Source of the DNA: Streptomyces sp. NBC_01216 | GTDB lineage: Bacteria; Actinomycetota; Actinomycetes; Streptomycetales; Streptomycetaceae | DNA: 64,000 nucleotides | Assembly (NCBI RefSeq): GCF_035994945.1 | Contig: NZ_CP108677.1 | Coordinates: forward strand, 7,063,402-7,127,401 | Reading direction: 5' to 3' | Part shown: positions 1,097-13,642 of the stretch, one piece after another | Numbering within the stretch: position 1 is the stretch's first letter | Layout of the letters: each line of letters starts with the position of its first letter | Program-made: the position numbers and the translations under genes | The notes under the pieces: generated by a model | What the model saw: the letters and a program-made list of their open reading frames with translations, nothing else | Database searches by the model: none | Told to the model about the DNA's origin: nothing

Positions 1097-1543
1097 CGCG
1101 GAGTCGACGCTCGGTCTGGTGACGCGGTGGTCCGGGTCAGGACCGTCGGGGCCCACCGTGAGCAACTCCCGGGTGAGCTGTTCAACTCTTGTGCTGAAAG
1201 GAACCGTTGATGACCGGCATCCAGGCCGGGGGGCGCTGTGAGTGGGCGGGCGCCGTGGATGACGGGCGGGTCGCCGAGCCGGTGGCCCAGGCTCAGGCCG
1301 GTGGGCTCCTCCCGCACCACCACGGGCGGACCGATGGCATCGGCGTCGGCACCCGCGCCAGACGGATCACGAGGCAGACGCCCGGCCGTGCGGGCTTCGA
1401 CCTCCTCCGCCACCGCACCCTCCTGCACTGACCGTCACCCCTCGTGGGCTCGTTCCGCTGTGACGGAACGTCTGGTGTGTCCCGGCCCGCTTGTCGCGGA
1501 CCCCGTGAGCAATCGATGACAACCCCGTACGCAGGAGGCGTCG
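1097..1543. other. Gap without a confident gene
   Basis: About 450 bases. A minus-strand frame beginning with GTG near 1428 is GC-rich at third positions for some 75 codons, then loses that signature. I could not recognise any family in it, so it is left unannotated. Sequence just before 1544 contains the Shine-Dalgarno AGGAGG of the next gene. Confidence 0.4.
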
Positions 1544-2257
1544 TTGTGCTTGCATGGTGATCGAGGACACACCGAGGCGTCGAGCCGGGGGGCGGTGAGT
1601 TCGCTGCGACTGTGGGCAGCGTGGTCATGGAGTCAGGCGGGGTCGATCATCTTGGCGGCGATGGCCGTCGTCGCCGTCGTCCTTCTGTACCGTGCGCTAC
1701 GCCGGGCCCGGCGGACGTCGGCCGCGACCGTGGACCGGCTCCGGAAGGCGGGCGACGCGGTGGTGGCGGGTGCCGAGTCCTTGACGGCGCTGTCCCGCAG
1801 CCTTGAGGCGATCACCGAGGAGTTCCGCTCGCGACGCGAACAGGACGCGTCCGCGCAGGCCCGGAGGGTCGGGTTCAGCAAGGGCGAAGTCTTCGCGGGG
1901 GAGGCGTCCTCCGGCGTCGGGGGGATCGCCATGGTCGTCGTCAGGAATCTCAGCAGTGAGATCATCTACGACCTGCAGGTCACCCCTCTCGCCGCGGGCC
2001 GCGACGATCCGGACCTCGAGCAGCGGGGCGCGGATGTGCTCGATCCGGGTCAGCTGCTCAACCTCGCCTTCCCACTGAACACCCACGACGGCTCCTCCCA
2101 GGGGGACAGGGAGTTCTCGCTGCTGTTCACCGACGCCTGGGGCCGGCCCTGGCGGCGGCTCACCTCTGACCCGGTCCCGTACCGGGCGGACGCCGATCCC
2201 GGCACCGACCGGTCTTCTGCCTCGGTGCGCGACCCGGCCGAGGAGGGAGGAGCCTGA
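1544..2257 (+). CDS. Membrane-anchored hypothetical protein, partner of the giant NTPase
   Basis: This 237-residue protein has one transmembrane segment (about residues 32-50, SIILAAMAVVAVVLLYRAL). A charged, probably coiled-coil stretch follows (residues ~50-105), then a mostly beta soluble domain (~110-205) containing GGIAMVVVRNLSSEIIYDLQ. With the short N-terminus it should be anchored with the C-terminal domain probably cytoplasmic. A TTG at 1544 has AGGAGG five bases upstream. A GTG at about 1592 is a possible later start. The stop overlaps the next start by one base (TGATG at 2255-2259), so it is translationally coupled to the 2097-residue protein and is likely part of the same system, perhaps as a membrane receptor or anchor. 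I recognise no named family. Confidence 0.75.
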   Translation: MCLHGDRGHTEASSRGAVSSLRLWAAWSWSQAGSIILAAMAVVAVVLLYRALRRARRTSAATVDRLRKAGDAVVAGAESLTALSRSLEAITEEFRSRREQDASAQARRVGFSKGEVFAGEASSGVGGIAMVVVRNLSSEIIYDLQVTPLAAGRDDPDLEQRGADVLDPGQLLNLAFPLNTHDGSSQGDREFSLLFTDAWGRPWRRLTSDPVPYRADADPGTDRSSASVRDPAEEGGA

Positions 2258-5200
2258 TGACGGCGCGTGACCGTCGGCTGGTTGAGATCACCTGTGGTGC
2301 GGGGACCGCGCTCTCACGGGGCACCGGGTATGTGGTGAGCGCGGGCGTCGTGCTGACCGCCGCCCACGTGGTCGTCGACTCGTGCGACAAGCCGCACGAG
2401 ATCCGCCTGCGCAGGGCGCCGGACACCGGCCCCGAGGACTGGTTCTCGCCGACCGCTGTCGTGCTCGGCGGAGAGGCGACGGACGCGGCGCTACTGCTCT
2501 TCGCAGCCGGGCACGGTGAACCGAGCGACGTCCCCCCATGGGTCGTCCATCTGGACATCGACCAGCCTCTGCCGTTCCACGCTCCCGGATTCCCACGTGT
2601 CCAGCGGGAGGGGGAGGAGCGGGACATCGAGGTGGTGCGCGGGCTGACGGCCCAGGGGACCACCGCCCGGCGTGGCGCGCTCTCCCTGAACATCGATTCG
2701 GCGACCCCTCCCGGCGTCCCCGCCGCCCGACCCGGTACGGCCGAGACGGATGCGGCACCGTCCCCGTGGGCGGGACACTCGGGCGCACCGGTCCTTACCC
2801 TCGGTGGGTCGCTGGTCGGCATGGTCGTGGAACACCATCAGGGCTTCGGCGGTTCTCGGCTGGAGGCCCTCGCGGTGACCGAGATCCGCGACGACCCCGC
2901 CTTCGACGGAATCCTGCCCGACGCCTGGTCCGGGAGCCGGCTCCGCCCCGCCAGCAGCCTGGTCTCCTTCGCCATCGGTGACACCCGCATCCGGGTCGAT
3001 CCCCCGTTTCAGAGCCTGGGGGAACAGGAACGCGCGATGCTTCAGCGTTCCACCGCCCTGCCCCTGCGGGCGCGATACCGCGTCGTACCCTTCACCGGCT
3101 CCGACCGCGGACTGGCGGAGCTCGCGCGGTGGTGCACCGGCGACACGAGCTCGGGCCACCCGGCGGGTTCCGGAAGCGTCGGGTACGCGCTGGTCTCGGG
3201 CGCCGGCGGTAGCGGCAAGTCCCGGCTGGCAGCGGAGGTGTGCCGCCTGGCCCTCGAGGCGGGGCTGGTGGCCGGTACGGCCACGGAGATCACCGGGACG
3301 GCAGGGACGTCCGGGATGGCCGAGCTCACCGAGCTCGGTGCTCGGGCACTACTGGTCTTCGACTACGTCGACTACCGCGCGGAGTTCGTCGCCACCGTCC
3401 TCGACGACTGCCGAGCCCGGGGCGCCGATGTCAGGCTGCTGGTACTCGCCCGGGACGGCGAGACGTTCCGCCGTCACCTCGACGCCCAGCTCGGGCTCGG
3501 CATGCTGAAACCGGATGTGGACATCACTCTGGACGACGGTGATCTCACACCGGAACTGCGCAGCGCGCACTACACGGCGGCGGCCGCCGCGTACCGGCGC
3601 CTGCACGCACCGGCGCAGCAGCGGGTCGAGCTCCCGGCCTCCGCAGCCGTCGACGCCTCCCCTGCGTTGGACAGTTGCACGACCCCGTTGCTGGTGCACG
3701 CCCGCGCCCTGCTCGACGTCCTGGGCGAGGCCGCAGGCCCCGACGCAGAGGACGACGACCCGCAGACGCCCGTGCGGACGCCCGGCGCCGAAGGTGTTCT
3801 GGCCGCCGTCGTCCACCGGGAGGCACGGCACTTCTGGGCTCCCGCCACCGAAGGACTCGGGCTCGGTCTTGAGACGCTGCACGACCTGATGGCCGTCACC
3901 ACCCTGGCCGGGGCCGATACGCGCCTTGACGCCCTGGAGCTTCTGCGGGCGGTGCCGGAACTGGCCGACACCTCAGCAGACCGGCGCACGCGTGTCCTCA
4001 ACGCCGTGCAGGGGATCTACCCGGGTTCCGCGGTGGTGCCCCTGGTCGAGCCGGACCTCCTGGGCGAGTACCTCGTTGCGACACGGCTGCTCCTGGCCGG
4101 GCCGTTGCCCGAGGTCTTCCGCCGGGCCGCAGCGCCCGCCCAGCGCTCCCGCATGCTCGAAGTGCTGCTGCGCATGGGTGACTCCCCGTTCCCGGCCGTG
4201 CGATCCGCGGTAGCCGTGGCGATCCGCGACCGCCTGGACGAGGTGCTGCCCGACCTGGTGGTGCAGGCCGACGAAGCGGCGGCCCGGACCGGGACGCCGG
4301 ACGAGCGGCTGCTGCCCGCTCGTCTCGCCGCCGCCCTCGCCATCACCGACGTTCCCTCCGCGGCTGCCCGTGCCGAGGAGCGGCACCCGGAGTTCTCCAC
4401 CAGCAGCGCCGTGCAGCCCTTGGCTGCCATTCTCTACCGGCAGGCCGCCGCGCACTGGCAGGCGCAGGGCGACGAAGGCCGGGCCGTGCGGTTGCTCTCC
4501 GCCGCGAGCCAGGCCCTGGTACGCCTCAACCGGCCCGACGCCGCGTTCGGGTTGCTCGATGAGGCGACCTCGGTCCTCTCCCGCACCCCGGACTTCAGCA
4601 CCAGCCCCCAGCTCGGCCGGATTCTCAGCACCAGTGCTCTGGCCCGCCTGGAGACCGGCAACCACGAGTGGGCGATCAGTGCCGCCCGAGACGCGGTCGG
4701 CATCGCCCGCGGCGCCGCGGAGAGGGAACCCGCGGTCCATCAGGAGCAGTACACGGAGGCGCTGGTCAGCCTGTTGCTGGCGGAGTTGAGCGCTGCCGAT
4801 CACACCGGTGCGCTGGGGACGGCAGTCGAACTCGTCCAGGCAGTCGCGGAGCTGGGTCCCCAGCGCCGAGCCACGGCCCTTCTGCTGCAGTGCCAGGTGC
4901 AGCTCGCCGGCGGCGACACCGAGGCGGCCGAGCAGGCGATGTCCACCGCCGAAGCTCTGCTGAGCGAGCTTCCCGACGAGGCGGCGCCCCGCGAACTGGC
5001 AGCCGCTCAAGCCGCCTTGTCCCTTGTCCTCGGTGCCTCCCCCGACGGCCTGCCGGCCGCGCGCGACCTGGCCCGCTCGGCTCTCGAACTGGCGGACCGG
5101 TTGCCCGACCCCGGTCACGAACAGTCCCGCCTCACGCGGGGGACCGTGCGCTTGCAGGTCGCCATGGTCCTGGAGCCCGACGACGGACTCCAGACGGTGG

Positions 5201-8200
5201 AAGAGGCCCATCGGCTCTTCGTCGGCCTCCGCGAGGAATACCCGGATATCTACGAGTTCTATCCCACCATCACGGCCTTGATGCGCGCCGAGCTGACCGC
5301 CGCCCAGGGCGACCTGGGCCGTGCGGCCCGGCTCGCCCAGCGCGCGGAGCGGGACGTGGCCGCCCTCTACCGAGTGAGGCCGAAACAGTACTACCCCTGG
5401 ACCGCGGTGGCCGCGCTCACCTCGGCCTCGATCCTGTCCACGGCGGGTCGCACCGGCGAAGCCGTCGCTTCTCTGGAACAGGCGGTCCAGCGCTTCGAGC
5501 GACTGGGCGCCGAATCGGCGCTTCCTCTGCTCGCCAGGTTACGCACCGCTCGCTCCGTGGTGCTCATCGACGCCGGCCGACACGCGGAGGGAGCCGAGGC
5601 CGCACGCGAGGCGGTGGCCGACTACGAGTCTCTGGCCGAGCGCTCCGGTACCTGGCTGCCCGATCTCCTCGGCGCGCACCTCGTCAACATGGTCGGCCTG
5701 GTCTGCTGTGGCCAGGAGGAGGCCGCCCGCGCGGCGGGGGACGAAGCGGTGCGGATCGTACGCCGTGACGCCGAGGAGCACGACACCCCGGACACGCGCA
5801 GACTACTGGCCAGGGTTCTCGCCGCACGTGGCCAGTGGCTCCGGGAGATGCGCCGCTTCGCCGACGCCCTGGAGTCGTTCCGGGAGAGCAGCCGTGTCTA
5901 CGGCACGTTCCGGCACACCAGGGAGGACGAGGCGGACCTGATGCTGCTGAGCGTGTGGACCGAGGAGTGCCGGGCGGAGATCGGCACCGGAACGGCGATG
6001 CCGGGGGTCGCCGACGCTCCTTCGCTTGATTCCCTGACCCTGGACCCCGCGTCTGACGCGATGACCGCGGCCCCGTCCGAGGCCGTGTCCGGAGCCGAGA
6101 CGGAGGCCACGCCGCACAACGCCCGGTGGCGTATCGTCCTCGGACGGCGCGGCGGCAAGTTGGTGGCAGCCGCGCCCTTTCGTCCGGTGCTGGTCCTGGG
6201 GCCACAGCGTAGCCGCAAGACCACCGGCGTGGTGATTCCCTCCCTCCTGGAGTGGGACGGACCCGCCCTCGTCACCTCGGTCCGCACAGATGTCCTGGCC
6301 GGCACCGCCACCCGCCGCCGCGGCATGGGCGACATCTCGGTGTTCGAACCGACCGGCCGCCTGCACACCCACGGCGAACCGACCACGACCTGGAACCCGT
6401 TGGAGGTGTGCGACACCTGGGACGGCGCGGTCGCCACCGCCCGGTCACTCGCGGAGACGGCACAGCTCACCGGCGACAACAGGCGACTGAACGACCAGTT
6501 CTGGACGACGATGGCCGAACAGCTCCTCCAGTCCCTCACGTTCGCGGCCGGAGCCACCGGACAGACCATGGAGAAGGTCAGCCAGTGGGTGAAGTCGATG
6601 GACTCCGCGGAGGTCCGGGCACGCCTCAGCGTCGCCGGAAGCGCTGAGGCCATCCGGACCTTCCAGGGGATGCGGCAGCTGGCCGACGTCACCCTCTCCA
6701 GCGTCTACGCGACAGCCGGCACCCTCCTGCGCGCCTATGACTCGGCCGAGGTCCGGGCCCGTTCGGTGTCCGGCTTCCAGGTCGACGACTTCTTCAACGG
6801 CGCAGCCAACACGCTCTACCTGTGTGCGCCGCCCGAACAGCAGGAGCTGATGGCCCCGATCTTCACCGCACTCATCCGGCGAGTGATCAATGAGGCGTAT
6901 CGGCGCCACGAGGCGGGAGAACGGACCCGACTGCTTCTGCTGCTCGACGAGGCGGGCAACATCGCGAAGATCGAGAATCTCGACACCCTCGCCACCACGG
7001 CCGCCGGTACCGAGATCCAGCTGGTCACGGTTTTCCACGACGTGGCCCAGGTCGAGGCGCTGTACGGGGCCCAGCGAGCACAGAGCATCATCAACAACCA
7101 CTCGGCGATGCTCATTCTGCCCGGCAACCGGGACCCGCGCACCGGACAGCTCGTCCGGGACCTCCTCACCGGCGAACCCGTGCACGCCCTCAACCGCCGC
7201 CCGGTACGCCGGCTGCAGCCGGGGACCGCGCTCTGCGTCTACGAACACCTGCCCGCGGAGGTGATCGCCCTCCGGTCGGCCACCCACGACCAGGACCTCC
7301 TGGACATCGCCGCCCTCCCCGGCCCCGGCCCCCGAGTACCTCCTGCCGCTCCGCCGTCGGACTCCGTCACGACACTGGTCCTGCTCGCGGAGAAGCACGC
7401 CGCCGCCGGGCGCCTGGAAGAGGCGCTGGCCGCCGCCGACCGGGCCGTGGAGCTCGCCCCCGACGACACGATGGCGCGCCTGCGCCGCTCCAGCACCCGA
7501 CTCTCCGCGCAGCGCCCGGGTGACGCCGCCGCCGACATCGACCACGTGCTCGCGAACAGCCCCCACGCCGCACTGGAGCTCGTCCTCGTCGCGGCGACCC
7601 TGCACCGTTGCGCGGGGGAGGACGAGAAGGCGCTGAGCGGCTACGCGCGCGCCCTGGAAGCCGACCCCGACAACCAGGAGGCGCTGATCGGACGCGCCAC
7701 GGTCCTCTACTCGAACAACCAGAGGGAGCAGGCCCTCGCCGACCTCGACCGGGTCCTTCACCTCGCTCCCGAGAACGCCGAGGCATTGGCCGCTCGCGGT
7801 GAGATCCACCGAGTCGACGGGCGCCTCGAGCCGGCACTGGCGGACCTCGACCACGCCCTGAGACTGGAGCCCGACAACGCCTTCGCCCTGCGCGGTCGCG
7901 CAGACGTGCACCACCTGGCCGGGCGGTATGAGGAAGCCGTCGCGGACTTCGACGGTGCCCTGCGTCTGGAGCGCGACAACGTCTTCGCGCTGACGCGTCG
8001 GGGGGAGAGTCACCGTATGGTCGGGCGGTATGAGGAAGCCGTCGCGGACTTCGACGGTGCCCTGCGTCTGGAGCGCGACAACGTCTTCGCGCTGACGCGT
8101 CGGGGGGAGAGTCACCGTATGGTCGGGCGGTATGAGGAAGCCGTCGCGGACTTCGACGGTGCCCTGCGTCTGGAGCGCGACAACGTCTTCGCGCTGACGC

Positions 8201-8550
8201 GTCGGGGGGAGAGTCACCGTATGGTCGGGCGGTATGAGGAAGCCGTCGCGGACTTCGACGGTGCCCTGCGTCTGGAGCCCGACAACGTCTTCGCGCTGAG
8301 CAGCCGCGGTGAGCTCCACCGTGAGCGGGGGCGACTGGAGGAAGCGTTGACCGACTTGAATCACGCGCTGCGTCTGGAGCCCGAGCACGCCTTCGCGTTG
8401 GGCGTCCGTGGCCGCGTGCACCGGAGCGCGCAACGCTACGCGGAGGCCCGGGCCGATCTGGAACGCGCCCTGGAACTGAGCCCCGGATTCCAGTGGGTGC
8501 GGCGCGAACTCAACCGCGTTCCCCGGGGTTCGAAGAAGCGCCGCCCCTGA
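2257..8550 (+). CDS. Giant fusion: trypsin-like protease, P-loop STAND-like NTPase, helical repeats, VirD4/TraG-like coupling ATPase, TPR array
   Basis: 2097 residues; start ATG with GGAGGGAGG upstream. Residues 1-240 form a trypsin-like domain: His37 in LTAAHVV, Asp76 in ATDAALLL, Ser175 in GHSGAP, so the triad looks intact. Residues ~295-640 carry a P-loop NTPase: Walker A GAGGSGKS at 315-322, Walker B around Asp369/Asp372. Residues ~650-1230 are alpha-helical repeats, then an acidic linker. Residues ~1290-1690 resemble type IV coupling proteins: Walker A-like GPQRSRKT (1315-1322), NPLEV, Walker B LLLLLDEAG (Asp1564/Glu1565) and VFHDVAQ. The Gly before the Walker Lys is Arg. Residues ~1709-2097 are TPRs, several identical. 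Trypsin-NTPase-TPR architectures are known in bacterial conflict systems, where the protease or a partner acts as effector after NTPase-dependent sensing. The coupling-ATPase fusion suggests DNA or protein translocation or conjugation sensing; that role is inferred. Neighbours are the coupled membrane protein and the Trypco2-like gene. Confidence 0.9.
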   Translation: MTARDRRLVEITCGAGTALSRGTGYVVSAGVVLTAAHVVVDSCDKPHEIRLRRAPDTGPEDWFSPTAVVLGGEATDAALLLFAAGHGEPSDVPPWVVHLDIDQPLPFHAPGFPRVQREGEERDIEVVRGLTAQGTTARRGALSLNIDSATPPGVPAARPGTAETDAAPSPWAGHSGAPVLTLGGSLVGMVVEHHQGFGGSRLEALAVTEIRDDPAFDGILPDAWSGSRLRPASSLVSFAIGDTRIRVDPPFQSLGEQERAMLQRSTALPLRARYRVVPFTGSDRGLAELARWCTGDTSSGHPAGSGSVGYALVSGAGGSGKSRLAAEVCRLALEAGLVAGTATEITGTAGTSGMAELTELGARALLVFDYVDYRAEFVATVLDDCRARGADVRLLVLARDGETFRRHLDAQLGLGMLKPDVDITLDDGDLTPELRSAHYTAAAAAYRRLHAPAQQRVELPASAAVDASPALDSCTTPLLVHARALLDVLGEAAGPDAEDDDPQTPVRTPGAEGVLAAVVHREARHFWAPATEGLGLGLETLHDLMAVTTLAGADTRLDALELLRAVPELADTSADRRTRVLNAVQGIYPGSAVVPLVEPDLLGEYLVATRLLLAGPLPEVFRRAAAPAQRSRMLEVLLRMGDSPFPAVRSAVAVAIRDRLDEVLPDLVVQADEAAARTGTPDERLLPARLAAALAITDVPSAAARAEERHPEFSTSSAVQPLAAILYRQAAAHWQAQGDEGRAVRLLSAASQALVRLNRPDAAFGLLDEATSVLSRTPDFSTSPQLGRILSTSALARLETGNHEWAISAARDAVGIARGAAEREPAVHQEQYTEALVSLLLAELSAADHTGALGTAVELVQAVAELGPQRRATALLLQCQVQLAGGDTEAAEQAMSTAEALLSELPDEAAPRELAAAQAALSLVLGASPDGLPAARDLARSALELADRLPDPGHEQSRLTRGTVRLQVAMVLEPDDGLQTVEEAHRLFVGLREEYPDIYEFYPTITALMRAELTAAQGDLGRAARLAQRAERDVAALYRVRPKQYYPWTAVAALTSASILSTAGRTGEAVASLEQAVQRFERLGAESALPLLARLRTARSVVLIDAGRHAEGAEAAREAVADYESLAERSGTWLPDLLGAHLVNMVGLVCCGQEEAARAAGDEAVRIVRRDAEEHDTPDTRRLLARVLAARGQWLREMRRFADALESFRESSRVYGTFRHTREDEADLMLLSVWTEECRAEIGTGTAMPGVADAPSLDSLTLDPASDAMTAAPSEAVSGAETEATPHNARWRIVLGRRGGKLVAAAPFRPVLVLGPQRSRKTTGVVIPSLLEWDGPALVTSVRTDVLAGTATRRRGMGDISVFEPTGRLHTHGEPTTTWNPLEVCDTWDGAVATARSLAETAQLTGDNRRLNDQFWTTMAEQLLQSLTFAAGATGQTMEKVSQWVKSMDSAEVRARLSVAGSAEAIRTFQGMRQLADVTLSSVYATAGTLLRAYDSAEVRARSVSGFQVDDFFNGAANTLYLCAPPEQQELMAPIFTALIRRVINEAYRRHEAGERTRLLLLLDEAGNIAKIENLDTLATTAAGTEIQLVTVFHDVAQVEALYGAQRAQSIINNHSAMLILPGNRDPRTGQLVRDLLTGEPVHALNRRPVRRLQPGTALCVYEHLPAEVIALRSATHDQDLLDIAALPGPGPRVPPAAPPSDSVTTLVLLAEKHAAAGRLEEALAAADRAVELAPDDTMARLRRSSTRLSAQRPGDAAADIDHVLANSPHAALELVLVAATLHRCAGEDEKALSGYARALEADPDNQEALIGRATVLYSNNQREQALADLDRVLHLAPENAEALAARGEIHRVDGRLEPALADLDHALRLEPDNAFALRGRADVHHLAGRYEEAVADFDGALRLERDNVFALTRRGESHRMVGRYEEAVADFDGALRLERDNVFALTRRGESHRMVGRYEEAVADFDGALRLERDNVFALTRRGESHRMVGRYEEAVADFDGALRLEPDNVFALSSRGELHRERGRLEEALTDLNHALRLEPEHAFALGVRGRVHRSAQRYAEARADLERALELSPGFQWVRRELNRVPRGSKKRRP
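7921..8299 (+). repeat. Tandem 102-bp identical TPR-coding repeats
   Basis: Three copies identical at every base (7921-8022, 8023-8124, 8125-8226) and a fourth (8227 on) matching to 8299 with one G-to-C difference at 8279. Each unit encodes one 34-residue TPR beginning GRYEEAVADFDGALRLE. Perfect identity at synonymous sites points to very recent expansion or gene conversion, so copy number may vary between strains. Confidence 0.95.
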
Positions 8551-8572
8551 CGCCCGAGCCTCCGCCCCGGCC

Positions 8573-8920
8573 TCACCCGCGGTCGGCGACCCGCACCCGC
8601 CTCCTGGGAGCCGGGCTCTGGGAGTCCTCGTGGTTCGCGGAGTTCTCGACGAACTGCGGCTCCAGCGTGAGCGTGACCCGATGCGTGGCGGCCGAGGCCC
8701 GCTCCGCACCCCCGCCCAGGGATACCACGTTCCACAGAGCGACCTTCGCCTCGCCCTTGAGCGCGGTGGTCACGGTCAGTTGCAGCTCCACCTGTATCGA
8801 CTGCACATCGAAGACCAGGTCCTTCCCCTCGGCGGTTGCCACAGCCTCCCTGATCTGTTTCCGCAGACTCGCCAATGCGTCGGGAATACTCAGCCCCGAC
8901 TCAGGGTCAATTTCTGGCAT
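8573..8920 (-). CDS. Trypco2-like domain protein
   Basis: This 115-residue protein sits tail to tail with the giant protease-NTPase gene (22-bp gap). ATG at 8920 follows GGAGGAAGG. Residues ~10-90 show the pattern I associate with the trypsin-co-occurring domain 2: an N-terminal amphipathic helix (LASLRKQIREAVATAEGK), strands FDVQSIQVELQLTVT, a VVSLGGG turn and THRVTLTLEPQ. A basic, disordered tail follows. Such domains are reported beside trypsin/STAND conflict modules and are thought to be effector-coupling or regulatory adaptors. Its position beside a trypsin-like protease strengthens the call. It is likely cytoplasmic, with no signal peptide or membrane segment. Whether it is the protease substrate, an activator or an effector cannot be told. 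Confidence 0.7.
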   Translation of the reverse strand: MPEIDPESGLSIPDALASLRKQIREAVATAEGKDLVFDVQSIQVELQLTVTTALKGEAKVALWNVVSLGGGAERASAATHRVTLTLEPQFVENSANHEDSQSPAPRRRVRVADRG

Positions 8921-9908: not shown

Positions 9909-10081
9909 GGGCCGGCAGACCACCTGTGTGTCGACCCGGCCCACCCGGCCGAACCAGGTAGCGCGCTCGGGCGGGGGTCAGGACGTCCCACAGCCGGTCG
10001 CAGTGGTCTGTGACCGCGCTTCCGGAGGTACCACGACGGGCCTCAAGGGAAATGACTTCGTCGTGGGGGCCTGGTAAGGGC

Positions 10082-11176
10082 ATGATTACCACCGTGCTCG
10101 ATGACGAGGACCATCGCGGGCGAACGCGGTACGCGCTGGCCGAGACGGAGCACGGGCATGCCTGGGGCGTCTGCGTCGAGGTGGAGGGGTTGTTCGGGGA
10201 ACCCCGGCGCGGGATCTACGAGCTGTTCGGCTGGGTTCCGCGAGCAGAGGTGGGCGGCTGGGTCGGCAACCGGGTTTGGCTGGTGCCGGACGACGAGACA
10301 CTCGACCCCTGGCTGCTGGAGGACGCGGAGAGCCCGGGGCAGCCCCTCGGGACAGGCAGTCTCGTGCTCACCGGCCTGGATGACCACGAAGGCCCGCCCG
10401 AGGGCCACAGGGGCCGTGTTCGGGTGCATGACGGGCACCGATGGCTGGGCGCCTGCCGGGAATTCGCCCGTGTACTGCCGTCCAATCGGCCGACGCCCCC
10501 GCTCGTCCTGCGGGGGCTAGCCGAGAGCGTTCAGCTGCGGTCGGCACGGGCGAAGGGCACCCGGCGGACACCCGTCCAGGAGCAGGCCGCACTGGAGATA
10601 CGGGATGACCGGGGCGAGCTGCTTGCCGAACGCCTGCTCTGGGCCAGAGTCACTGCCTCGCGCCCCTCCTCCTACGGGACGGACCTGATCGACCTGGAGC
10701 TCGATGGAGAGCTCTTCACTCCCATTCCTGAGTACGCCCGGTCCATCTGGGAGCGGTGGCTCGCCGGGCCGCCGGACACCCTGGGTGCCTGGGCCGGCCT
10801 CGACAGCCGACGCCGCTGGGCCTGGCACGATCTCGTCCGAGACCGAGCTGCCTATCGTGCCCGCTGTGACCGGCCGCCCGGTCACGCCTACGAGCTCGAC
10901 GGCCGGTACGTCACCGATGAACCGGGCCTCTATCTGGCGCTCGGTGAGGCGGTGAACGGGCCGGGTGGCTATTTCGGCGGCTGTCTGAACGCCCTCGATG
11001 ACTGCCTGGGTGGCACCTTCGGCTGCACCGCTCCCGCAACTCTGCTCTGGCGGGACGCTGCCATCGCACGCGAGCACCTGTCCCAGGTCCTGACACCGGA
11101 CGGCCGGCCTTACGACCTGTTCGGTGTGGTCCTCAAGGTCCTGGCCGAGGGCGGCATGCACGTCACCCTGGCGTGA
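10082..11176 (+). CDS. Barstar-domain protein with a long N-terminal extension
   Basis: 364 residues from an ATG at 10082; a longer in-frame ATG at 10010 has a less protein-like leader. The last ~90 residues resemble barstar, the barnase inhibitor: LYLALGEAVNGPGGYFGGCL, then NALDDCLGG, the loop and helix that plug the RNase active site. The first ~270 residues are not part of classical barstar (90 residues) and include an N-terminal domain with YELFGWVPR and WLVPDD motifs and several Trp. Barstar-family proteins in Streptomyces are often immunity proteins for secreted or polymorphic-toxin RNases. No toxin gene lies next to it here, so it may be an orphan immunity gene or have another role. 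It ends convergently with the sugar transporter operon. Confidence 0.7.
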   Translation: MITTVLDDEDHRGRTRYALAETEHGHAWGVCVEVEGLFGEPRRGIYELFGWVPRAEVGGWVGNRVWLVPDDETLDPWLLEDAESPGQPLGTGSLVLTGLDDHEGPPEGHRGRVRVHDGHRWLGACREFARVLPSNRPTPPLVLRGLAESVQLRSARAKGTRRTPVQEQAALEIRDDRGELLAERLLWARVTASRPSSYGTDLIDLELDGELFTPIPEYARSIWERWLAGPPDTLGAWAGLDSRRRWAWHDLVRDRAAYRARCDRPPGHAYELDGRYVTDEPGLYLALGEAVNGPGGYFGGCLNALDDCLGGTFGCTAPATLLWRDAAIAREHLSQVLTPDGRPYDLFGVVLKVLAEGGMHVTLA

Positions 11177-11309: not shown

Positions 11310-12296
11310 CTATTTCACGGAGCCCGCCATCACCCCTTGGACGAAGTGCCGTTGGAACGCGAAGAAGACGACCAGCGGGACCACCAGTGACAGGAACGCC
11401 CCCGGTGCGAGGACGCCGATGTTGCTTCCGAACTGCCTCATCTGGGACTGCAGGGCGACGGTGAGCGGCTGCGACCCGGTGTCCGCGAAGAGCAGTGCCA
11501 CGAGCATGTCGTTCCAGACCCAGAGGAACTGGAAGATGGCCAGGCTGGCGATGGCCGGACGGCCGAGTGGCAGGACGAGCCGGGAGAAGATCCGCCACTC
11601 GCTGCCGCCGTCCATCCGGGCGGCCTCCAGCATCTCGCGCGGGATCTCGGCGAAGTAGTTGCGCAGGAGGAAGACCGCGAACGGCAGTCCGTAGGCGACA
11701 TGGAAGAGGACGACGCCCGCGACCGTCCCGAACAGGCCCACCGCGCCGAAGAGTTTGGCGACGGGCAGCAGCCCGATCTGCACAGGCACCACGAGGAGCC
11801 CGACGACGACGAGGAAGATGACGTCCCGGCCGGGAAACTCCAGCCAGGCGAAGGCGTAGCCGGCGAGGGCCGCGATGACCACCACCAGGACGGTGGTCGG
11901 CACGGAGATCAGGACGGTGTTCCAGAAGGCCGTCCCGATCCCGGAATCCTCCAGCAGCGCGCTGTAGTTGTCCAGGGACAGCTGCGAGGGATCGGTGAGC
12001 GCGGTCCACCAACCGTCCGTGGCGTTGTCCTGCTCGGAGCGCATGGAGGACAGGAGCAGGCCCGCCAGCGGCGTGATCCAGACGAGGGCGACCAGGATCA
12101 GGACGCCTTGGACGACGGAGCTGCTCAGCAGGCGCGAGATCCCGCCCACGCGCCGCGGCCCGGGTGCGGATCCGCGAGGCGTCGCGGAAGGCGGCGACGA
12201 GGAGGACGGGGACGAGGACGGGGATGAGGCGGCGGGCGGGACCGTCGCCGTCCGCCGGGACGGGTCGTGCCGCTGGACGGTGCTGTGGCCGCTCAT
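11310..12296 (-). CDS. Carbohydrate ABC transporter permease (MalG-type)
   Basis: 328 residues, six predicted membrane spans, and the EAA loop EAARMDGGSEWRIFSRLVLP that docks on the ATPase. The ~50-residue N-terminus is Ser/Pro-rich and disordered. The C-terminal QRHFVQGVMAGSVK is typical of MalG-type permeases. ATG at 12296 overlaps the preceding permease stop by 4 bp and follows GAAGGAG. It is the last gene of the operon glycosidase, binding protein, permease, permease. No ATPase is encoded, so it presumably uses a shared MsiK-like ATPase elsewhere, as is usual for Streptomyces sugar transporters. Confidence 0.92.
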   Translation of the reverse strand: MSGHSTVQRHDPSRRTATVPPAASSPSSSPSSSSPPSATPRGSAPGPRRVGGISRLLSSSVVQGVLILVALVWITPLAGLLLSSMRSEQDNATDGWWTALTDPSQLSLDNYSALLEDSGIGTAFWNTVLISVPTTVLVVVIAALAGYAFAWLEFPGRDVIFLVVVGLLVVPVQIGLLPVAKLFGAVGLFGTVAGVVLFHVAYGLPFAVFLLRNYFAEIPREMLEAARMDGGSEWRIFSRLVLPLGRPAIASLAIFQFLWVWNDMLVALLFADTGSQPLTVALQSQMRQFGSNIGVLAPGAFLSLVVPLVVFFAFQRHFVQGVMAGSVK

Positions 12297-13642
12297 GCTC
12301 CACTCCTTCGGAAACGCCGGACGTTGAAGACCATCGCCGGGACGACGAGCAGCAGGAGCACCATGCTGAGCGCGCTGCCGAGCCCTTGGTCGTTGCCGCC
12401 GCCGAAGGAGACCATCCACATACGGGTGGCCAGTACGTTCGCCTCTTCCTGCACCGGTCCGGGCGCGATGATCCAGACCAGGTCGAAGACCTTCATCACG
12501 TTGATCACCAGGGTCACGAAGACCACGGTGAGCACCGGTGCGAGCAGCGGCACGGTGATCTTGCGGAAGATCTGGCCCTCGGTGGCGCCGTCCATGCGCG
12601 CGGCCTCCAGGGCGTCGCGCGGGATGGCGGCGAGGCCGGCGCCGATCAGGACCATGGAGAAGCCGGTCCATACCCAGAGGTAGGCGCCGATGATCGCGGG
12701 CGTCACCAGCGCGGGACCGAGCCAGTTCACGCCCGGGTAGGGGGCGTCGAAGTTGGCCGCGGGCAGCCGGACGGCGTAGTCACCGTCGGGCAGCCCGGCG
12801 AAACGGAACGAGCCGTCAGCCGCCGTGGTGGCGGTCGCGGTCACCCGGCCGTCGCGTACGGCCTCGACCGTCATGCCGGGCAGTCCCTTCTCGCCCGGGT
12901 CGACCCTGCCCGGGGTGCCCGCGCCACCGGGGGCGAAGTCGAGGTAGACGACGCCCCCGATCGCGTCGCTGCCGGGCGTCGCGCCGCCCGGGGCGGCCGC
13001 GTCGGACGCGGGCTTCGCACCGGCCGGTATCGCGTCGGGTGCGACCCCGATGAACCCGAGGCTGAGCGAGTCCCCGGGCCGTACCGTCGCCGCCGTGCTG
13101 TACGGGCCGCCCGCACCGCCCGTCAGGCCGTGGCCCTCCCGGGCGCGGGCCGTCGGATACGCGGCGGCGTCGTCGAAGCTGTCGTGGACGGCGACGACGG
13201 CGGCGTTGAGCACGCCCCGGTCCGGGTCCTGTTCGTAGGCGAGCCGGAAGATGATGCCCGCGGCGAGGAAGGACACGGCCATCGGCAGGAACAGCACCAG
13301 CTTGAACGCGGTCGCCCAGCGCACCTTCTCGGTGAGCACGGCGAGCAGCAGCCCGAGTCCGGTGAGCAGGGTGGGGGCGACGACGACCCAGACGGCGCTG
13401 TTGCGGATCGCCTTGAGGGTGGCCGGGTCCCGCACGATGGCCGCGTAGTTCGCGGCTCCGACGAACCGGTCGCCGTCGGCGTCGAACAGGCTGCGGCCGA
13501 AGGAGAAGAGGACGGGATAGACGACCAGCGCGCCGAGCAGCAGCAGCGCGGGCAGGACGAAGACGACCGCGAGGCAGCGCTTCTTGCGCTGGGCCCGGCG
13601 CCGCCCGTCGGCCGCCGACCGGACGGTGATGGTGTCAGCCAT
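12293..13642 (-). CDS. Carbohydrate ABC transporter permease (MalF-type) with an inserted extracytoplasmic beta domain
   Basis: 449 residues, versus about 300 for ordinary permeases. Membrane spans before residue ~150 and after ~305 and the EAA loop EAARMDGATEGQIFRKI define the MalF-like core. Between them, about residues 150-300, is an insertion with no membrane segments. It contains GGVVYLDFAPGG, GEKGLPGMTVEAV and TTAADGSFRFAGLPDGDYAV, the signature of a SdrD-B/carboxypeptidase-regulatory-like Ig fold. By topology the insert should lie outside the membrane, where it could contact the binding protein, recalling the large P2 loop of E. coli MalF though of different fold. It lies 10 bp after the binding-protein stop and overlaps the next permease by 4 bp. 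Confidence 0.92.
   Translation of the reverse strand: MADTITVRSAADGRRRAQRKKRCLAVVFVLPALLLLGALVVYPVLFSFGRSLFDADGDRFVGAANYAAIVRDPATLKAIRNSAVWVVVAPTLLTGLGLLLAVLTEKVRWATAFKLVLFLPMAVSFLAAGIIFRLAYEQDPDRGVLNAAVVAVHDSFDDAAAYPTARAREGHGLTGGAGGPYSTAATVRPGDSLSLGFIGVAPDAIPAGAKPASDAAAPGGATPGSDAIGGVVYLDFAPGGAGTPGRVDPGEKGLPGMTVEAVRDGRVTATATTAADGSFRFAGLPDGDYAVRLPAANFDAPYPGVNWLGPALVTPAIIGAYLWVWTGFSMVLIGAGLAAIPRDALEAARMDGATEGQIFRKITVPLLAPVLTVVFVTLVINVMKVFDLVWIIAPGPVQEEANVLATRMWMVSFGGGNDQGLGSALSMVLLLLVVPAMVFNVRRFRRSGA

Follow-up and report, generated by a model that had tools for sequence, protein, structure and literature searches.

A candidate conflict protein of Streptomyces that joins a trypsin-STAND receptor to a soluble VirD4-like ATPase

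In a stretch of 64,000 nucleotides from Streptomyces sp. NBC_01216 (contig NZ_CP108677.1, forward-strand positions 7,063,402 to 7,127,401; hereafter the window), a single gene encodes a protein of 2097 amino acids (aa) in which a trypsin-like protease, a STAND-type nucleoside triphosphatase (NTPase), helical repeats, a VirD4/TraG-like ATPase and a tetratricopeptide repeat (TPR) array are fused. The fusion, its recurrence in a second genome, the intact motifs, the missing membrane anchor of the ATPase and the kept gene for a transmembrane (TM) protein can all be read from the sequences themselves. Taken together, the protein is rather probably a variant of the predicted Trypco2/trypsin-STAND conflict proteins, because the relatives of its protease-NTPase half have Trypco2 upstream and, where scanned, lack VirD4; a receptor complete with protease, NTP switch and a sensor of helical repeats would have gained a soluble VirD4-like ring behind these repeats and, in this strain, a young TPR array. 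Most likely, the chain would act as an NTP-switched protease receptor in which the ring, engaging DNA or protein, serves as an extra sensor or effector.

Architecture of the fusion protein

The frame (2257-8550, + strand) is open throughout, and its coding statistics are even, with G+C at third codon positions (GC3) of 0.82-0.91 in all eleven 600-bp blocks. The stop codon of the preceding 237-aa gene and the ATG of the fusion gene at 2257 have one base in common, and the Trypco2 gene, which is convergent, ends 22 bases from the end of the fusion gene. The features of the locus are the following.

1533..1538, + strand: Shine-Dalgarno-like AGGAGG, read from the sequence; precedes the TTG start at 1544 of the 237-aa gene
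1544..2257, + strand: gene of the 237-aa protein with one TM-like segment (hydrophobicity, low-confidence AlphaFold2 (AF2) model, S. griseus homologue)
2257..8550, + strand: gene of the 2097-aa fusion protein (open frame, Pfam, coding statistics, S. griseus homologue)
2320..2823, + strand: trypsin-like protease, residues 22-189 (Pfam Trypsin_2; triad H37/D76/S175)
3139..4176, + strand: nSTAND-type NTPase region, about residues 295-640 (Pfam nSTAND_NTPase5 at 304-402, below cut-off; conserved motifs)
4414..5856, + strand: helical repeats, about residues 720-1200 (alpha-alpha repeats in AF2)
6118..7311, + strand: VirD4/TraG-like ATPase domain without TM anchor, residues 1288-1685 (Pfam, alignment, tree, PDB profile matches)
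7375..8487, + strand: C-terminal TPR array, about residues 1707-2077 (Pfam TPR families)
7840..8299, + strand: 102-bp tandem repeat of 4.5 copies within the TPR array (TRF, unit comparison)
8573..8920, - strand: Trypco2 gene, 115 aa, convergent with the fusion gene (Pfam E 3e-19)

According to Pfam, Trypsin_2 matches residues 22-189 (E 4e-7, 31.4 bits with a cut-off of 27.6), T4SS-DNA_transf residues 1299-1630 (E 6e-38), and TPR families about residues 1707-2077 (E down to 1e-48). Together with the conserved motifs, these matches bear out the first-pass annotation, made from the sequence alone, which had described one chain with a protease of intact triad, an NTPase, helical repeats, a VirD4/TraG-like ATPase and TPR. 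That annotation had staked its reading on a profile match of residues 1290-1690 to coupling proteins, and the T4SS-DNA_transf match is of that kind.

The helical part is an alpha-alpha repeat, for which AF2 confidence is fair only at about residues 900-1170; a search for it (residues 640-1290) in 100 relatives gave only TPR-like matches, in two other genomes. As for the N-terminal part, its two-sequence profile has four weak matches in PDB (best E 0.014), which are not interpretable. The C-terminal TPR array of the window strain is young, and three neighbouring 102-bp units within it differ by 0-1 base.

A second fusion in Streptomyces griseus

Streptomyces griseus NRRL WC-3645 (locus L057) carries a fused protein with the same domain order and 39% identity over residues 7-1688, the ATPase domains being 57% identical. 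Its Pfam families occur in the same order as in the window (Trypsin_2 27.5 bits, nSTAND_NTPase5 22.3 bits), and a TM-protein gene (highest 19-residue hydrophobicity mean 2.35) again lies directly upstream. This chain ends soon after the ATPase without a C-terminal TPR array, so the array is known from the window strain only. Since a second, separately sequenced Streptomyces genome carries the same order across the joints, the fusion is real. An assembly or frame artefact joining unrelated genes, which the first-pass annotation had named as the error to look for, is favoured by rarity only; the homologous joints in S. griseus rule it out, the even coding statistics also speak against it, and its probability is vanishingly small.

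Relatives of the protease-NTPase half

The genome sets searched here and below are overlapping samples, and scoring was confined to the first few candidates of each genome. Residues 1-640 match at E 1e-15 or better in 10 of 199 genus genomes, the window strain's own genome included, where a second, weaker protease-NTPase copy is found at E 4e-9. The ten relatives considered are from nine genus genomes plus this second copy, and all ten have Trypco2 immediately upstream in the same orientation. Pfam reports Trypsin_2 and nSTAND_NTPase5 in each of the eight relatives scanned (the latter above its cut-off in two of them, L051 and L052, with 35.4 and 39.9 bits, respectively), families named TPR in five (E up to 0.001) and the VirD4 family in none. 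Across the alignment, all 12 sequences have the same triad (H37/D76/S175), Walker A lysine (K321) and Walker B aspartate (D369). Thus, the predicted protease-NTPase half belongs to a family with Trypco2 neighbours, and its earlier placement as kin of a conflict-system family is upheld by the ten sampled relatives that adjoin Trypco2.

The genome of the window strain also contains a second Trypco2 and trypsin-STAND pair in the usual order (G000:C1:688478-692437, in L045) and a third Trypco2 (G000:C1:3979613-3979846).

The VirD4-like ATPase

The VirD4 part of the window protein has K1321-T1322, D1564-E1565 and Q1598, and its profile matches in PDB are TrwB and Cag5 structures. Four motifs, GPQRS[RG]KT, TSVRxDV, FHD and LPGNxDP, are common to six sequences (two fused and four unfused), and none of the 23 other aligned VirD4 rows has all four together. 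In a maximum-likelihood tree of 29 rows, which has a midpoint root and for which the program warned of long branches, the six-sequence group is split off by a branch with support of 100/100; the two fused proteins are sisters (98/96), and the unfused protein of genome G740 comes next (94/92). The highest 19-residue hydrophobicity means, 1.62 for the whole 2097-aa chain and 1.29-1.77 for the five other members, indicate no strong TM segment. A TM-like segment precedes the VirD4 domain in 22 of 24 compared loci, the exceptions being L002, a VirD4 locus of the window strain's own genome without a strong TM segment, and the truncated L027.

By sequence comparison, the window ATPase is a member of a soluble VirD4-like group that is distinct from the sampled anchored coupling proteins; an ordinary coupling protein is ruled out by the missing anchor and the tree. 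Of the fused coupling-protein ATPase proposed initially, the strong Pfam match stands, while the type had to be revised to a TM-less one that groups with soluble VirD4-like proteins. Proteins without a strong TM segment also exist outside the six-member group, namely L002 and a protein of genome G432. The latter (L074 2412-5749, + strand) is a predicted 379-aa VirD4-like protein behind a 733-aa gene; its motifs GPTRSGKT and TSVK differ from those of the group, the start assigned to it may be wrong, and the tree does not include it. Because it is a TM-less VirD4-like protein outside the group, loss of the anchor is less telling for an immunity module.

Both fused copies and G740 have Arg in the place of the P-loop Gly, which favours the explanation that the VirD4-like domain is an integrated bait, i.e., a decoy to which invader proteins directed at coupling proteins would bind, with no need for ATPase activity. 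Plant receptors with integrated decoys provide the analogy. However, the domain retains its Lys-Thr, Asp-Glu and Gln motifs, variation at this Gly (Ser, Met, Ala, Phe) extends to other coupling proteins in the sample, and the closest relatives are soluble and unfused, whereas a bait would have to mimic the anchored coupling proteins. A bait role is therefore considered quite improbable.

Alternatively, the VirD4-like domain may itself be the effector, a DNA translocase ring released by the protease or activated by STAND assembly and acting on invading DNA. FtsK-type ATPases, both active and inactive, are listed as effectors of other conflict systems in passages of PMC7159879 and PMC8195603, and unfused members exist, so the ATPase can function without the receptor. 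However, it lies behind the helical repeats and, in the window, is followed by another repeat array, the N-terminal effector place being that of the protease, and no nuclease is fused to the chain or adjacent to it among the genes scanned with Pfam. An effector role of this kind is judged unlikely.

Unfused members occur in two other settings. An operon of an AAA+ ATPase, an unknown protein of ~340 aa and a soluble VirD4-like protein is present in two Streptomyces genomes and in Catellatospora (L070 9457-13182, - strand; L071 4918-8641, + strand; L072 6652-10000, + strand), on whose far side a gene for a TM protein runs in the opposite direction; the operon is possibly a separate new system. 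In G740 (L105 10096-12967, - strand), a soluble VirD4-like ATPase has an unknown 478-aa protein as its partner; the DNA there is low in GC (56-57%), integrase, FtsK-family and NUDIX genes are close by, and the pair looks like cargo of an integrative element. Searches of the two unknown partner proteins against PDB gave no match for one and one chance-level match for the other.

Several further candidates were rejected. Among them are long frames of the phylum sample that match VirD4. According to their reading frames, G558, G239 and G207 encode no fusions but proteins of 595-760 aa with TM-like segments, and the 379-aa frame of G432 is not a fusion either. L106, from a contig listed as viral, is no group member, being a TM-bearing VirD4 with an ordinary motif and a relaxase-like open reading frame, recognised by eye, alongside; that part of L106 looks like a conjugative element.

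Distribution of the fusion

A five-row VirD4 profile gives matches at 1e-45 in 13 of the 392 genus genomes, namely the window, S. griseus, G740 and ten more at 7.5e-55 to 2.2e-48, which are non-members by score; one fusion other than that of the window was found among the 392. The same profile matches the window and, more weakly, twelve others in 293 order genomes, and in the 384 class genomes nothing but the window passes 1e-80. With the single VirD4 domain as query, there are matches in 14 of the 199 genus genomes and in 33 of the 396 phylum genomes; no frame except that of the window exceeds 1109 aa, and the best other matches, at up to 43% and 44% identity, are not fusions.

The pattern GPQRS[RSG]KTTG is found at 5 loci in a collection of one genome per species (84,980 species): the fused L057, three unfused VirD4-like loci (S. 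neyagawaensis, S. torulosus and Catellatospora coxensis), and a fifth without an encoded relative. A search of the 411-aa coupling piece against the same collection found no relative. Phage records gave 5 matches, with at most 37% over a short piece. Regarding plasmids, 1508 records match, the 12 matches listed being conjugation types at about 30%, and no plasmid record matches the whole 2097-aa chain with 80% coverage. The rarity and patchy distribution of the fusion suggest a conflict role.

The upstream membrane protein and Trypco2

The 237-aa protein has one TM-like segment at about residues 33-52. Its low-confidence AF2 model (predicted local distance difference test, pLDDT, 53) has a predicted coiled coil and beta-sandwich; Foldseek with this model gave one match under E 0.001, with poor superposition, and otherwise generic beta-sandwiches. 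A TM-protein gene stands directly upstream at both fused loci, which agrees with the earlier claim that a membrane-protein gene is coupled to the fusion. The two TM proteins match in BLASTP with E 6e-6 and 26% identity over 95 aa. In tblastn at E up to 1, the window TM protein matches neither the S. griseus stretch, so that kinship comes from direct BLASTP alone, nor anything near the ten protease-NTPase relatives. Kinship with the TM proteins beside the three soluble VirD4 operons was not borne out (hhalign probability 0.3%). As for Trypco2, the gene is present and convergent as first annotated, but it is weak as a fixed partner, being upstream and on the same strand in the relatives and off the contig in S. 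griseus.

Neighbouring genes and weight of the evidence

The window forms the end of one of the 4 contigs, 7.13 Mb long, of a 7.7-Mb genome. A Pfam scan limited to the neighbouring genes of the fusion reports no relaxase or type IV secretion system gene among them. Two genes downstream of Trypco2, the product of 10010-11176 (+ strand) has a C-terminal Barstar domain and is perhaps an immunity-type protein. The gene at 12293-13642 (- strand) encodes a sugar-type ABC permease with CarboxypepD_reg and SdrD_B-like matches inside (residues about 228-299), an odd combination.

Ordinary neighbours, together with the one unfused relative beside an integrative element, favour a role outside defence, as a regulated protease complex that serves cell physiology or controls the transfer of an integrative element. 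The patchy distribution, the young repeats, the associations of the family given in passages of PMC7159879 and the absence of transfer genes among the scanned neighbours speak against such a role, which appears decidedly improbable.

Assignment to the predicted conflict proteins also has to be set against a number of observations. In the window, nSTAND_NTPase5 (residues 304-402, E 9e-6) reaches 26.1 bits with a cut-off of 34; in S. griseus, it is likewise below cut-off, and Trypsin_2 falls just under 27.6. AF2 of residues 1-1200 from two sequences gave unusable models of protease and STAND. Both fused ATPases have Arg for the P-loop Gly before Lys. Only two fused copies are known, the 60-kb S. 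griseus contig has no Trypco2 (the three of that genome are on other contigs), and, the Barstar-domain gene excepted, the scanned neighbours in the window include no defence or transfer genes. Finally, no PADLOC family matches the whole protein; its weak partial matches, to mad8 of MADS (E 9e-7 over 1396-1642, in the VirD4 part) and to Avs1b (E 0.004 over 12-82, in the protease part), speak for the assignment.

Proposed mechanism

At rest, the STAND module would keep the protease inactive. Binding of an invader ligand to the repeats and/or the VirD4-like ring would be followed by NTP-driven oligomerisation that clusters the chains, and the trypsin domains, then active, would cut a partner. The VirD4-like ATPase would most likely engage DNA or a DNA-protein complex, tying activation to foreign material near the membrane, and the one-TM protein may be the tether that the ATPase lacks or else the protease substrate. 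The conflict role and switching by oligomerisation are what we infer from the family, and the task of the ATPase, the ligand and the substrate, as proposed here, are a rather doubtful conjecture.

A tentative extension is that bacterial immunity has recruited a conjugation motor, the soluble VirD4-like ATPases, as a movable module (in fusion, operon and cargo pair), and that the fusion detects or processes invading DNA-protein complexes at the membrane and fires the protease. If the ATPase does sense or act, a relative of conjugation motors and a protease-armed immune receptor are joined in one chain. The analysis also brings out a small soluble group of VirD4-like proteins, for which Pfam offers only the general conjugation family.

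Comparison with known systems

No description of VirD4/TraG fused to trypsin-STAND was found in the literature searched. The word VirD4 has no occurrence in PMC7159879, PMC8195603 or PMC10907252. In the relevant passages of Kaur et al. (2020, PMC7159879), the trypsin neighbours are named Trypco1 and Trypco2, and trypsin, Trypco and STAND parts are predicted in conflict systems; these passages also place an N-terminal trypsin fused to a STAND NTPase, with a Death-like domain, in the NucA system. The window protein resembles the Trypco-linked trypsin/STAND systems described there in its trypsin-like peptidase with a Trypco2 neighbour, its STAND NTPase and its superstructure-forming repeats. It differs from them in the fused VirD4-like ATPase and in the gene order, with Trypco2 convergent downstream in the window and off the contig in S. 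griseus, and a TM-protein gene upstream instead.

A pumping ATPase in a conflict protein is also reported, in parts of PMC7159879 and PMC8195603, for vWA-MoxR ternary systems with an FtsK effector. There, FtsK is a fusion partner of the vWA component or is listed for iSTAND2/TERNS3 systems, whereas here the ATPase is of VirD4/TraG type and is carried by trypsin-STAND. FtsK domains predicted to be inactive are placed in VMAP systems in a passage of PMC7159879, and active and inactive copies are listed in conflict systems in one of PMC8195603 (2021). No vWA, MoxR or VMAP/iSTAND domain occurs in the 25 of 28 families listed for the fusion or in the scanned neighbours. We take the FtsK and VirD4 types to be both of the FtsK-HerA-VirD4 kind of pumping ATPase.

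As outlined in part of PMC12799240, a fused trypsin domain activates a partner nuclease in the defence systems Hachiman, AVAST, Lamassu and DRT; unlike in these trypsin-nuclease pairs, the upstream gene in the window encodes a TM protein, not a metallo-beta-lactamase (MBL) nuclease, and the NTPase is different. Finally, the protein shares with the coupling proteins VirD4, TraG and TrwB a whole cytosolic ATPase domain with Walker motifs, as seen from Pfam and from the TrwB and Cag5 profile matches, and, in contrast to them, its domain is without a TM anchor, has distinct motifs and forms part of a protease chain.

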